Shown here in pieces: positions 19,389-31,635 of a DNA stretch of 32,046 bases. A program made the translations under genes and the position numbers. Source of the DNA: Myxococcales bacterium (GTDB lineage Bacteria; Myxococcota_A; Polyangia; Polyangiales; Polyangiaceae); contig JAAFHV010000093.1 in NCBI GenBank assembly GCA_013297655.1, positions 1-32,046 on the forward strand, in the 5' to 3' direction. Within the stretch, counting starts at the first letter, position 1; every line of letters begins with the position of its first letter. The notes beneath the pieces were generated by a model that was given only the letters and a program-made list of their open reading frames with translations, searched no databases and was not told where the DNA came from.

Positions 19389-19829
19389 TCAGCCCTTCTT
19401 GAGGGCGGCGACGGTGCGCGTACACGCCTCGTAACACTCTTTGCAGACGGCGTGATGCTCGGCGTGTTTTTGGCACTCTACTGCGCAGTCCTCACAATAG
19501 GCCACGAGCGCCTTGGACGTCTCCGCGAGGCGCTTTCCTCCGCGCGCCGCGAGCTTGGAGAGCGCTTCCATCGCCGCGAGCATGTCGGTCACGCTGGCGA
19601 GGCAGCCCGCCATCGAGGTGTCGCCGTTCGAGACCATGCCGATGCAATGTGCGAGGCAGGCGTTTCCGGCCTTGAGGCACGCGAGCGAAGCGTCGGCGAG
19701 TGACGCATCGCCGGTGCCGTGGGCATGCTCGGCGGTGTGGGCGACCGCGTTCTTCGCGCATGAGAGCGTGCCGAGCGCGAGCGCGGCAGTGAACGCCGAG
19801 GACCCAAAGAGAGCTTCACGTCGATTCAT
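19389..19829 (-). CDS. Csp-type four-helix-bundle copper-storage protein, 146 aa
   Basis: The N-terminus MNRREALFGSSAFTAALALG resembles a Tat signal, as in exported Csp1 proteins. The mature part has about ten Cys arranged on helices: LACLKAGNACLAHC, MAGCLASV, VAYCEDCAVECQKHAEHHAVCKECYEAC. This is typical of Csp proteins, which bind many Cu(I) ions inside a four-helix bundle. Folding as an exported, pre-assembled unit fits the Tat signal. AAGGA lies seven bases before the ATG at 19829. It follows the retron RT gene by about 190 bp in the same direction but is probably a separate unit. Confidence 0.88.
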   Translation of the reverse strand: MNRREALFGSSAFTAALALGTLSCAKNAVAHTAEHAHGTGDASLADASLACLKAGNACLAHCIGMVSNGDTSMAGCLASVTDMLAAMEALSKLAARGGKRLAETSKALVAYCEDCAVECQKHAEHHAVCKECYEACTRTVAALKKG

Positions 19830-20016: not shown

Positions 20017-21648
20017 TCAAAAGAGCTTCCACCACTTCTTCTTCTCGGGCGCTCCCGGAGCCGGCGGTTCTACCGGCGCGGCAGGTGCGGGCGGTGTGAC
20101 CTGCGGGGGCGTGACCTGCGGCGGGGCCTGCACGGGGGCGGGCGTGCTCGCCGAGGCCGGATTTGCGGTGGAAGGGCCTGCCGCGGAAGGGCCGGGTGGT
20201 ACAGGCTTCTTGGGGCCTTTTCCGCCGCCTCCACCGCCACGCGGCGGAGGCCGATACCCATATTTGGCAGCGAGCGCGGCTACTTTGCCGAGGAGCGCGC
20301 GGCCCTTCGGCGGATCGACCATCGCGACGTACGAGGCGAACCCCTTTGCCGACGCGAACACGTCGGGCGAGGTGCCCCACGAGCGGCCTTCGGGGCCTTT
20401 GGTCTCGATCGCGTGGAGGAGCGCGCGAAACGCGCGGAGCCGCTCGCGCTCGATCGACGCCTTCTGATTCACGATCACGCCGGTGACGTCTTGTTGGCTG
20501 CCGCGGCGGAGGACGCGTGTCTTCTTGGGGTGCGGCGTAAAACCCTCTGCCAGCACGATGAACCGCGCCTGCGCGAGCATTTGCCCGGTGCGCTTCGAGG
20601 CCGCTTCGTCCTTCGTGGAGAAGGTGAGATCGTCGGCATAGCGCGAATACACGAATCCGAGCTTCTTCGCCGCGCCGTGGAGGCGGCGGTCGAGCCTGCG
20701 GCAAAGCACGTTCGTGACGGCGGGGCTGGTGGGCGCGCCTTGCGGCAGCTTGCGGGGGCCGTGCGCGACGTGGAACGTGCGGCCGTCGAGCTCCACCGCG
20801 AAGGTGTCCGGCTCACTGGCCACGAGCGCAAAGACCGAAGCGACGAAGTCGCCGTACCCGAGCGAGCGGAACATGCCCTTGATTCGCGGGAGGGCGATCG
20901 AAGGGAAAAAATCGAGCAGATCCATGTTCACGACCACGCGCGCGCCCACGTGCGGAGTGGCGTTGCTCACGATAGACCGGCCGGCGCGGAACCCGTGCGC
21001 CGCCTCGTGGACGGGGACCTTCTCGAGCACGTTCTCGAGGAGCCACCCTTGGAGCGACTTGAGGCGCGGCATCGGCGCCGAGATGGTGCGCACCCCGCCC
21101 GTTTTTTTGGGGATGTTGAATCGGCGATAGTGCGAAATCTTGGACGTGTTGCGGGCGTAGCTGAGAAAACGTAAATCGGGGATCGAGAGCCCCGCCGCGC
21201 GCGCGATTTCCTCTGCGGTGCGGAAGAGGGGCAATCCTTGGCGCGCGAGCTTGGTTTCGTCGCACGTGTGATCGGAGAGGCCGCCGGACACGCCGCGACC
21301 GAGGAACACGATGTCCTTGGTCTTCGCGACTTTCCACGCTTCGGCGCGGGCGACGCGCTCGCGCTCGCGGCGAACCTTGGTTTCGGCTTGTTTTGCGCGG
21401 GAAGCGGCGAGCCGCCGCTTCATGAGCTCTTTCTTGAGCGCCTCGATGTTGTGGAGACGTGACTGCTCGGTGCGGAGGGCGGCGAGCTCGCGTTCGATCT
21501 CGCCGCGCTCGCGGATCTCGTCACCCGGGTCGAGCGGCACGGTGCCGCGCGCGGGCCAAAACCCGAGGCGGATCATCTCTTCGAGCACCACCTCGTCTTT
21601 GGAGGAGGTGCGGATGCGGTCGTAGAGGGCTTGTCTGCGGTCGGACAT
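20017..21648 (-). CDS. Retron reverse transcriptase with long N-terminal extension and Pro-rich tail, 543 aa
   Basis: Both retron hallmarks are present: NATPH (NAxxH, 229-233) and DVTGVIVN (VTG, 388-390). Motif A is VNMDLLDFFPS with Asp243, motif B LPQGAPTSP (301-309), and the active site YADD (337-340). The first 165 residues form an extension with a charged coiled-coil-like helix (about 45-110), followed by IVFLGRGVSGGL. This layout resembles the large myxobacterial retron RTs such as that of Mx162 (from memory). After the thumb (to about 467) comes a tail of about 75 Pro/Ala/Gly-rich residues ending in EKKKWWKLF, an unusual addition. The ATG at 21648 lies ten bases downstream of the end of the a2 repeat. 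The RT would copy the adjacent msd RNA into msDNA. No toxin or effector domain is fused. Confidence 0.95.
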   Translation of the reverse strand: MSDRRQALYDRIRTSSKDEVVLEEMIRLGFWPARGTVPLDPGDEIRERGEIERELAALRTEQSRLHNIEALKKELMKRRLAASRAKQAETKVRRERERVARAEAWKVAKTKDIVFLGRGVSGGLSDHTCDETKLARQGLPLFRTAEEIARAAGLSIPDLRFLSYARNTSKISHYRRFNIPKKTGGVRTISAPMPRLKSLQGWLLENVLEKVPVHEAAHGFRAGRSIVSNATPHVGARVVVNMDLLDFFPSIALPRIKGMFRSLGYGDFVASVFALVASEPDTFAVELDGRTFHVAHGPRKLPQGAPTSPAVTNVLCRRLDRRLHGAAKKLGFVYSRYADDLTFSTKDEAASKRTGQMLAQARFIVLAEGFTPHPKKTRVLRRGSQQDVTGVIVNQKASIERERLRAFRALLHAIETKGPEGRSWGTSPDVFASAKGFASYVAMVDPPKGRALLGKVAALAAKYGYRPPPRGGGGGGKGPKKPVPPGPSAAGPSTANPASASTPAPVQAPPQVTPPQVTPPAPAAPVEPPAPGAPEKKKWWKLF

Positions 21649-21657
21649 GGTAACCGC

Positions 21658-21682
21658 TTCACGCGCGGCGGATTCGGGGGCC
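21658..21682 (-). repeat. Retron a2 inverted repeat
   Basis: On the plus strand this reads TTCACGCGCGGCGG, then ATTCGGGGGCC, the counterpart of a1. It ends nine bases before the RT ATG, so its last bases (GTGAAGCGG) lie in the ribosome binding region of the RT gene. Confidence 0.85.
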
Positions 21683-21720
21683 TTCGAAGATGTCTCGGGA
21701 CTGGCTCGCTCAACTCCAGC

Positions 21721-21790
21721 GGCCGTGCCTAGGTGGTGCTCGTTGAATATGTGGGATTGAACCCGGAACAGCACTACCTAGGCATCGGCC
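21721..21790 (-). other. msd hairpin of the retron
   Basis: Two arms, GGCCGATGCCTAGGTAGTGC(T) and AGCACCACCTAGGCACGGCC, pair over 19 of 20 positions with one bulged A and one A-C mismatch. The 29-nt loop includes a GGG/CCC mini-stem. Long imperfect stems of this kind are the core of msDNA. Confidence 0.8.
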
Positions 21791-21869
21791 GCACAGTCGA
21801 GAGCGGGCCAGTGATGCATGGAGGGCCAAGCTGCAAGGACGGCGAAACACCGACCAGATTGCAAGATGT

Positions 21870-21895
21870 GACCCCGAAAGCCGCCGCGCGTGAAA
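21870..21895 (-). repeat. Retron a1 inverted repeat
   Basis: Contains TTCACGCGCGGCGG followed by CTTTCGGGG. The first 14 bases are perfectly complementary to a2, and TTCGGGG pairs again after a one-base offset. It starts 33 bp after the SWIM gene stop codon. Confidence 0.85.
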
Positions 21896-30142: not shown

Positions 30143-31450
30143 TCACTTCGGGGCGGCGATGCGGCCGGCGAAGAGGACCGTGTTGGTGGGGATATCGCGA
30201 ATGAAGACCATGAACGGGCGGTTCACCTCGAACACCACCGGCTCCTCCGGGATCGACGCGGTTCCGGCCATGATGACCGCGGTCGCGGCGGCGGCCTCGG
30301 TGCCCTTCTCGTCGACCCGAACGAACGCCTTGTGGAGCACGTCGGAGATGAAGAGGCGCTCGGCCTCGGGCTTCACCATGCCCGAGAAATCCGCGTCTTT
30401 CGCCGAGAACGGCGCGCTCATTCCGAGCGCCTCGAGCGGCTTACGAAGCGAGATCGCCTCCCCCGCGATCGAGAACTTGGGCAAGCTGATGCGCACGCGC
30501 TTTTCGGTCGTGAGGCCCGCCATCGTCGAGAGCAGCGCCTTGCCGTCGAACGCGGTCTCGAAGGTTTTCAGACCTTGGCGCGGGAGCACCACGACCATCG
30601 ACACCTTGTTTCCTTGATACGGCATCTCCACGACTTGCGCGGTCTCGGTGTCCGCGTACTTCATTGCCGCGGTCTGGTTCATCGTCGGCACGTTCGACTT
30701 CGAGCCGTCGAGGTTCGTGAACGACGCGTCGCGGGTCTGGTCCTTGTCGAAGGGGATGGCCCAGTCGGCGTTGAAATAAACGGCGTTCACGAGGACCATG
30801 CGCGTCGCTTCGTTGAGCGAGCCGGGTCCGAGGAGGTTCTGGATTTTCTGCTCGGTCTGCTTCTCGACCCAGGCGTTGATTTTGGTGCGCTCGGCGTCGG
30901 CTTGGTTCTTGAAGTCGGCGAGCTGCACACCGGCGCCGTAGTTCGTCGCGATGGTGTCGAGGTAGGGGGCCTCGAAGGGCACTCCTTTTTGGCCAAAGGT
31001 GGTGTTCACGGAGCGAAGGGTGAACGGCTTGCCGTCGCTCGAGGCGTCGGAGGCGCGCGAGGTGAGGGCGAGGTCGAGGGCGTTCATCGCGACGTGCAGG
31101 CGGGCCTCGGGCAGCTTGAAGGAGAGCCCAGCCGCCATCTCGGTCGCGGTCGTGCCGCGCGCGCCGGCGTAGGTCATCGAGAGCGCGCTCACCACGCTGA
31201 GCGGCGAGAAGAACGCGTTGCCTTCGCCCTTCGCCGCGGTCTGCCCGTAGAGGCGCATGGTCAGCTCGGCGTTGCCTTCCGCGAGGCTCGCCATCTCCGC
31301 CGGGGTCGCGTTCGGTGCGGTGTCCCGCGAGAGGCTCGACTTGGCCTGCTCGAACGACGGGGCATCCTCCGTAGTCGTGTCCGCCGCACAGCCGGCAGCG
31401 AGAAGTCCGAGGGTCATGGAGAGGCCAAGCGAGAGGTGAAGAGCGCGCAT
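30143..31450 (-). CDS. Serpin lipoprotein (serine protease inhibitor), 435 aa
   Basis: The signal MRALHLSLGLSMTLGLLAAGC has a lipobox (LAAGC). The ATG at 31450 is preceded by AAAGGA nine bases upstream. The serpin fold is recognisable throughout: NAFFSPLSVVSALSMTYAGARGTTATEM, VNTTFGQKGVPFEAPYLDTI, LVNAVYFNADWAIPFD, VVVLPRQGLKTFE, ISLPKFSIAGEAISLRKPLEALGM, and the C-terminal EVNRPFMVFIRDIPTNTVLFAGRI. The hinge of the reactive loop is inhibitory in type (EKGTEAAAAT). Counting from it places P1 at Thr or Ala (MAGTAS), which would favour elastase- or papain-like targets rather than trypsin-like ones. It likely sits in the outer membrane or periplasm. A terminator follows. Confidence 0.93.
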   Translation of the reverse strand: MRALHLSLGLSMTLGLLAAGCAADTTTEDAPSFEQAKSSLSRDTAPNATPAEMASLAEGNAELTMRLYGQTAAKGEGNAFFSPLSVVSALSMTYAGARGTTATEMAAGLSFKLPEARLHVAMNALDLALTSRASDASSDGKPFTLRSVNTTFGQKGVPFEAPYLDTIATNYGAGVQLADFKNQADAERTKINAWVEKQTEQKIQNLLGPGSLNEATRMVLVNAVYFNADWAIPFDKDQTRDASFTNLDGSKSNVPTMNQTAAMKYADTETAQVVEMPYQGNKVSMVVVLPRQGLKTFETAFDGKALLSTMAGLTTEKRVRISLPKFSIAGEAISLRKPLEALGMSAPFSAKDADFSGMVKPEAERLFISDVLHKAFVRVDEKGTEAAAATAVIMAGTASIPEEPVVFEVNRPFMVFIRDIPTNTVLFAGRIAAPK

Positions 31451-31635
31451 CGGAGGAGATCCTTTCGGGTTAGTGCCAATCCGTATTGCGCGATCCGTGC
31501 CATGAGCGATTTGGGGAAAAAGTTGGCAAATATGGGGTTTGCGAGCGGGTTGTGGCGCAGTCGTGGCACAGTTGGTTGCGGTGGCGCGCTTTGGCGCAGG
31601 TGCCACGTCGTGGCAGAGGCGAGACCAACCCGAGT
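31451..31635. other. Upstream region of the serpin gene
   Basis: About 185 bp before the serpin start with no convincing ORF. It is less GC-rich near 31505-31545 (AAAAAGTTGGCAAATATGGG), where the serpin promoter may lie. I found no clear -35/-10 pair. Confidence 0.35.

Follow-up and report, generated by a model that had tools for sequence, protein, structure and literature searches.

The DNA analyzed here (the window, 32,046 nt of a myxobacterial contig) appears to contain a complete type XIII retron on its minus strand, in the order ligase, WGR-propeller, WGR-HEAT, SWIM/clamp, ncRNA and RT. We put the probability of this reading at about 80%. Retrons produce a hybrid of RNA and DNA, and usually serve as a guard against viruses. 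The features are collected in Table 1.

An initial annotation had placed a bacterial retron at 21658-21895, and its main sequence statements all held there. The retron itself stood. The minus strand, the type (XIII), the upstream partner proteins and the fast-changing tip of the msd had all been missed.

Table 1. Features of the retron locus, in order of transcription
Feature	Position	Strand	Properties
ATP-dependent DNA ligase, 503 aa	28497..30008	minus	N-terminal SWIM, C-terminal WGR-like domain; linked to the retron in five further genomes
WGR + beta-propeller protein, 480 aa	26876..28318	minus	WGR 6e-19, PQQ_2 1e-10; retron-linked in myxobacterial relatives
WGR-HEAT protein, 1047 aa	23625..26768	minus	N-terminal WGR domain, long alpha-solenoid; WGR_XIII E 0; model pLDDT 83
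SWIM_XIII protein, 564 aa	21929..23623	minus	Predicted PCNA-like clamp fold 34-366, likely winged helix ~375-445, SWIM zinc finger 503-536; SWIM_XIII E 2e-235
a1, 5' arm of retron RNA	21872..21894	minus	Perfect 14 bp 21881-21894, inner 7 bp 21872-21878; complementarity retained in relatives
CTTGC with predicted 2'-5' branching (priming) guanosine G21862	21861..21865	minus	Invariant in 19 aligned loci, CTAGC in some other relatives; position of the priming G per PMC6868368
msr stem-loop	21837..21855	minus	Most conserved helix: 8 bp closed by a UUU loop, 99% of cells paired
Predicted RT-DNA (msDNA)	21686..21818	plus	~125-135 nt, 5' end 21686, 3' end approximate; by analogy of priming stem
msd hairpin	21698..21813	minus	Tip 21719-21792 variable in sequence, with heavy covariation
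a2, 3' arm of retron RNA	21658..21680	minus	Perfect 21658-21671, inner block 21674-21680
Retron RT, 543 aa	20017..21648	minus	N-terminal extension, RT core, Pro/Gly-rich linker, C-terminal KKKWWKLF; RT_XIII E 6e-176

Assignment to type XIII

The RT and the products of the two genes directly upstream of it matched the PADLOC models RT_XIII, SWIM_XIII and WGR_XIII over nearly their full length, and the element was therefore assigned to type XIII. The RT scored 584 bits with RT_XIII and 304 bits with the next best PADLOC model. As in other type XIII retrons, the ncRNA lies between the SWIM and RT genes. The order WGR-HEAT, SWIM, ncRNA and RT was identical in the relatives read. The locus differs from type XIII as modeled by PADLOC in two extra linked genes, for the WGR-beta-propeller protein and for a SWIM-ligase-WGR protein. 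The retron as originally noted is ordinary, one more member of type XIII, and has no Rfam family.

Structure of the retron RNA

The transcript strand is the minus strand, hence a1 is the high-coordinate arm and a2 the low-coordinate arm. The 14-bp perfect complement described in the initial annotation was found between 21894-21881 (TTCACGCGCGGCGG) and 21671-21658 (CCGCCGCGCGTGAA), as was the second block of 7 bp (21674-21680 with 21872-21878). Together, the arms are 23 nt long, 87% complementary and separated by 191 nt. The RT gene starts with an ATG at 21648, nine bases past a2, as had been described.

The 70-nt hairpin with 19 pairs, also described before, was present but proved to be part of a longer structure. 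The inner hairpin (21719-21792) stands on a further stem, and the whole msd covers approximately 21698-21813. The tip was the most variable sequence of the RNA, and also showed the strongest covariation. The msr stem-loop is likely the element recognized by the RT, judging from its role in other retrons.

The whole RNA folded at -135.1 kcal/mol, compared with -93.3 +/- 4.5 kcal/mol for shuffled sequences (z -9.3, 0/200). Perfect 14-bp inverted repeats at such spacing were estimated with a Markov model at about 0.5 per window, so the 14-mer alone is weak evidence.

Priming site and predicted msDNA

At the inner end of a1, the sequence CTTGC (21865-21861) faces CGAAG (ending at 21682). The two are separated by exactly 187 nt in the window; 13 of 18 relatives have the same distance, and the others 185-195 nt. 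CTTGC was invariant in all 19 aligned loci. A compensatory variant, CTAGC opposite CGTAG, occurs in some relatives, with TAGC in L112, L117 and L118. TAGC is the commonest priming context among known retrons, and CAGC is that of Mx162 and Sa163 (PMC6868368). These contexts suggested that G21862 is likely the branching guanosine.

By the same analogy, we infer that copying of the msd by the RT would yield hairpin DNA approximately 130 nt long. The predicted msDNA, folded as DNA, formed a long hairpin (z -6.5).

Mxa1 (Mx162), Sau1 (Sa163) and Mxa2 (Mx65) share with this retron their myxobacterial hosts, a long N-terminal extension of the RT and a long msd (PMC6868368). Their priming G, on the other hand, lies in CAGC or GAGC (PMC6868368), and in TTGC here; this comparison was made by description, not by sequence. 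Assignment to the Mx162/Sa163 type was rejected on the lack of the CAGC context.

Conservation and covariation of the RNA

One scan with the RT gave 18 loci, in Myxococcota, in Methylobacterium and relatives, in Pelagimonas and in Bacteroidota. All 18 carry the retron RNA immediately 5' of the RT gene. In the alignment of 19 loci (Myxococcota, Alphaproteobacteria and Bacteroidota), 33 of 48 pairs were altered on both sides, which was reached in none of 500 shuffles. Covariation was 0.563, compared with 0.191 after shuffling. Pairing was retained in 94.4% of the cells, compared with 36-43% when the structure was slid along the alignment.

A longer alignment that included the a1/a2 stem, folded independently, showed compensatory changes in 45 of 56 pairs. 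A second set of 26 loci gave 38 of 48 pairs altered on both sides and a covariation of 0.652 (0.164 for the control); these loci were aligned to the covariance model and are therefore biased towards it.

The initial annotation had named loss of a1 and a2 in close relatives as grounds against the retron. The opposite was found: the arms change in sequence yet stay complementary. Their helix (columns 22-35 with 247-261 of the longer alignment) varies on both sides, and the perfect complement is 17 bp in L003, 14 bp in L004 and L006, 18 bp in L007 and 12 bp in L005. This conservation strongly suggested that the retron is functional.

The same data bear on whether the inverted repeats could instead be a terminator, or a G+C-rich palindrome that arose by chance 5' of the RT gene. 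The expected frequency of the 14-bp repeat in the window is compatible with such an origin. On the other hand, no T run follows the stem, and the structure covaries and keeps invariant msr motifs in three phyla. We regard this explanation as refuted by the covariation, and its probability as negligible.

A covariance model built from the alignments was run on 193 genomes of the class and detected the retron RNA in 29 of them; it also detected this RNA beside more distant RT_XIII genes. A search against known msr-msd families, as proposed in the initial annotation, gave no Rfam retron match at gathering or permissive thresholds. The earlier statement that the msDNA sequence is probably new was a fair one, given that the RNA has no Rfam family and that the msd tip could not be aligned by sequence with distant relatives.

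At six distant myxobacterial loci with RT_XIII-like genes (L044, L029, L030, L036, L045 and L031), a related RNA lies several hundred bases 5' of the RT gene. It has GAGC near the likely priming site, and these are possibly Mx65-type retrons.

The reverse transcriptase

The NAxxH and VTG motifs reported earlier lie at residues 229-233 and 388-390 of the RT, and YADD at residues 337-340. All three were invariant in 10 aligned RTs. The closest solved RT was that of Ec86 (PDB match, E 1.4e-50). Retron-Eco1 (Ec86) also has the order a1, msr, msd, a2 and RT. It differs in its effector, which is NDT and not SWIM and WGR proteins, and in its much shorter msd.

Nothing specific pointed to a degenerate retron, of which the RNA is no longer copied. 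All the ORFs were intact, as were the catalytic and retron motifs of the RT, and the RNA fold was at full strength (166.7 bits). We consider degeneration very improbable.

The C-terminus of the RT (20017-20340, minus strand) is a flexible Pro/Gly-rich linker followed by a conserved aromatic tail. RTs of the myxobacterial clade end in such a linker and K-W-W-[KQ]-[LIV]-F, those of Bacteroidota in KPWWNVV, and those of Alphaproteobacteria in hydrophobic helices. Tails of the forms KKKWWKLF, KKKKWWQIF and DKPWWNVV, or hydrophobic helices, were seen at L003-L006, L084-L087, L013, L018, L020, L007, L009, L015 and L016. The tethered aromatic tail is reminiscent of clamp-binding peptides. This is only a hypothesis, because the RTs of more distant myxobacterial loci (L024-L050) have no tail at all.

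The same genome encodes a second retron-type RT (L002, G000 contig 15, 24214-25095), with RT_other as its best PADLOC match (1.6e-122). The type XIII RNA model found nothing beside it.

The SWIM_XIII protein

An AlphaFold2 model of the SWIM_XIII protein was computed with 28 homologues; its mean pLDDT was 73.5, and residues 60-140 were a weak part. Residues 34-366 of the model resembled the PCNA and 9-1-1 clamps, with a VIA Z score of up to 16.6 (220 aligned residues, rmsd 2.9 A). The VIA matches shown had 213-231 aligned residues and rmsd of 2.6-3.3 A, and Foldseek gave E values of about 1e-7. A search of a viral structure library returned clamps once more.

The clamp region is followed by three helices (386-399, 404-411 and 415-427) and two strands, the elements of a likely winged helix. 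The profile of the protein against PDB sequences gave only two weak matches, both to winged helices (E 0.64 and 0.75).

The helices predicted to line the channel (42-56, 189-200, 232-245 and 319-328) each carry conserved arginine. Among the 28 sequences, R46, R319, R321 and R327 were present in all, R199 in 27 and R236 in 26, with lysine in one more.

The predicted fold is shared with PCNA and 9-1-1 clamps. The protein differs from them in its sequence (about 10% identity), in a helical insertion at about 60-140, and in the fused winged helix and SWIM finger. At E <= 10, the PCNA profile PF00705 matched nothing in the genome as a whole, and PCNA was absent from the Pfam matches of SWIM_XIII at E <= 5. 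We therefore describe residues 34-366 as 'folded like a clamp' and not as a member of the PCNA family. The clamp assignment is based on a single AlphaFold model.

SWIM_XIII is rare on plasmids. A Diaphorobacter plasmid (L067, 7752-14085) encodes a distant relative; no RT accompanies it, and two DUF6493 genes come next. The SWIM protein may therefore have partners of another kind when it occurs apart from retrons.

The ligase and WGR-propeller genes

Upstream of the SWIM gene lies that of the WGR-HEAT protein, for which structure searches returned only generic alpha-solenoids at low TM-scores. Two further genes precede it. The ligase matched PF14743 (2.7e-30) and PF01068 (2.4e-10) and contained an OB domain, and its motif I, KLDG (K-x-D-G), was invariant. 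So was its N-terminal SWIM motif (C70, C72, C87 and H89). The C-terminal WGR domain was above the Pfam cut-off in the relative L086 and weak in L090. With the PADLOC type XIII models, the ligase gave no match and the propeller protein a match of 0.00034; the propeller protein of L004 gave none.

The propeller gene adjoins the WGR-HEAT gene also in L003-L006 and L064. Linkage of both genes to the retron was also seen in five further genomes, which belong to two other families and show two gene orders. The order of the window (ligase, propeller, WGR-HEAT, SWIM, ncRNA, RT) was found in two genomes of one other family (L084 and L085), and partially in L083. In two genomes of a further family (L086 and L087), the order was WGR-HEAT, SWIM, ncRNA, RT, propeller, ligase, with the two genes downstream of the RT. 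That the two genes have come to adjoin the retron again at another place speaks for a functional connection. An earlier judgment that the ligase is unlinked, drawn from the nearest relatives and Archangium, was overturned by the wider search at the class level.

The alternative is an ordinary three-protein type XIII retron, with the ligase and WGR-propeller genes as passengers brought there by a shared neighborhood, a defence island or chance. Archangium, Hyalangium and many other loci have no ligase next to the retron, and in Archangium and Hyalangium the ligase is elsewhere in the genome. Paralogues of the WGR-propeller protein also occur alone (L062, L059 and L076-L082). Against this, adjacency of the two genes to those of the retron was seen in six genomes from three families, and their place was either ahead of WGR-HEAT or behind the RT. 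A close RT was present in 4 of 59 close relatives, and the ligase in all four of these, compared with 6 of the 59 overall (hypergeometric 3e-5, uncorrected for phylogeny). SWIM and WGR modules are also common to the ligase and the retron proteins. We take the passenger explanation as a serious one, to which we give clearly less than even weight.

Neither gene was present in many type XIII loci (L007-L020 and L108-L120), so the propeller and the ligase cannot be essential to the type. The hosts examined from Methylobacterium, Pelagimonas and Bacteroidota had no ligase. The two genes seem to form a module that one subgroup of myxobacteria carries as an option.

Other genes were also noted. A second, unlinked WGR-propeller copy (about 60% identical) is present in the same genome (L062/L063, G000 contig 198, 9486-10916), and solo copies occur in other myxobacteria. 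A bacterial serpin gene (30143-31606, minus strand; Pfam PF00079, 3.6e-111) lies beside the ligase gene. Downstream of the RT gene is that of a Csp1-family copper storage protein (19389-19829, minus strand; NCBIfam TIGR04401, 3.6e-34).

Possible mode of action

In the literature searched, which did not take in the type definition (Mestre 2020) or the retron census, no mechanism was found for type XIII retrons, and no retron tied to a clamp, a ligase or a SWIM/WGR partner; parts of this may already be in print.

We propose that the type XIII RT is coupled to a dedicated sliding-clamp-like protein, docking perhaps via the C-terminal KWW[KQ][LIV]F, and, in the myxobacterial subgroup, to the DNA ligase and the WGR-propeller protein. 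We rate this coupling as rather doubtful. The following steps belong to the preferred reading of the locus. The RT would bind the msr stem-loop, start synthesis at the 2'-OH of G21862, which faces the a2 sequence CGAAG, and copy the msd into the hairpin DNA. By analogy with studied retrons, the RT-msDNA complex would restrain its partners, the clamp-like SWIM protein and the WGR-HEAT scaffold. Disturbance of the msDNA or of host DNA metabolism by a phage would then release them to act on DNA. The clamp-fold protein would encircle or grip the DNA, the WGR domains would bind broken or nicked ends, and the ligase, in the subgroup that has it, would seal or mark these ends.

The element may instead be a host device for DNA repair or stress that was built on a retron, and not an anti-phage system. 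Its parts are repair-like (clamp fold, ligase and WGR), and no relative of SWIM_XIII was found among 50,697 phage records. Myxobacterial retrons are reported to be very common and vertically inherited (PMC6868368), which would also fit a host function. On the other hand, the other retron types of tested function are anti-phage, and the distribution of this RNA in the class is patchy. We consider a repair or stress device unlikely, and retain the anti-phage retron as the preferred reading.

The RNA alignment, in which the msd tip covaries strongly and the length is nearly fixed, yields a covariance model for retron finding where Rfam offers none. The recurrent ligase-propeller module widens the known parts list of type XIII retrons. 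For the SWIM protein, the hallmark of the type, the predicted clamp fold suggests a function that is specific enough to be tested. If the proposed coupling is true, these retrons would amount to a compact assembly, like those of replication or repair, that acts on DNA ends, and not to a simple toxin released by msDNA.
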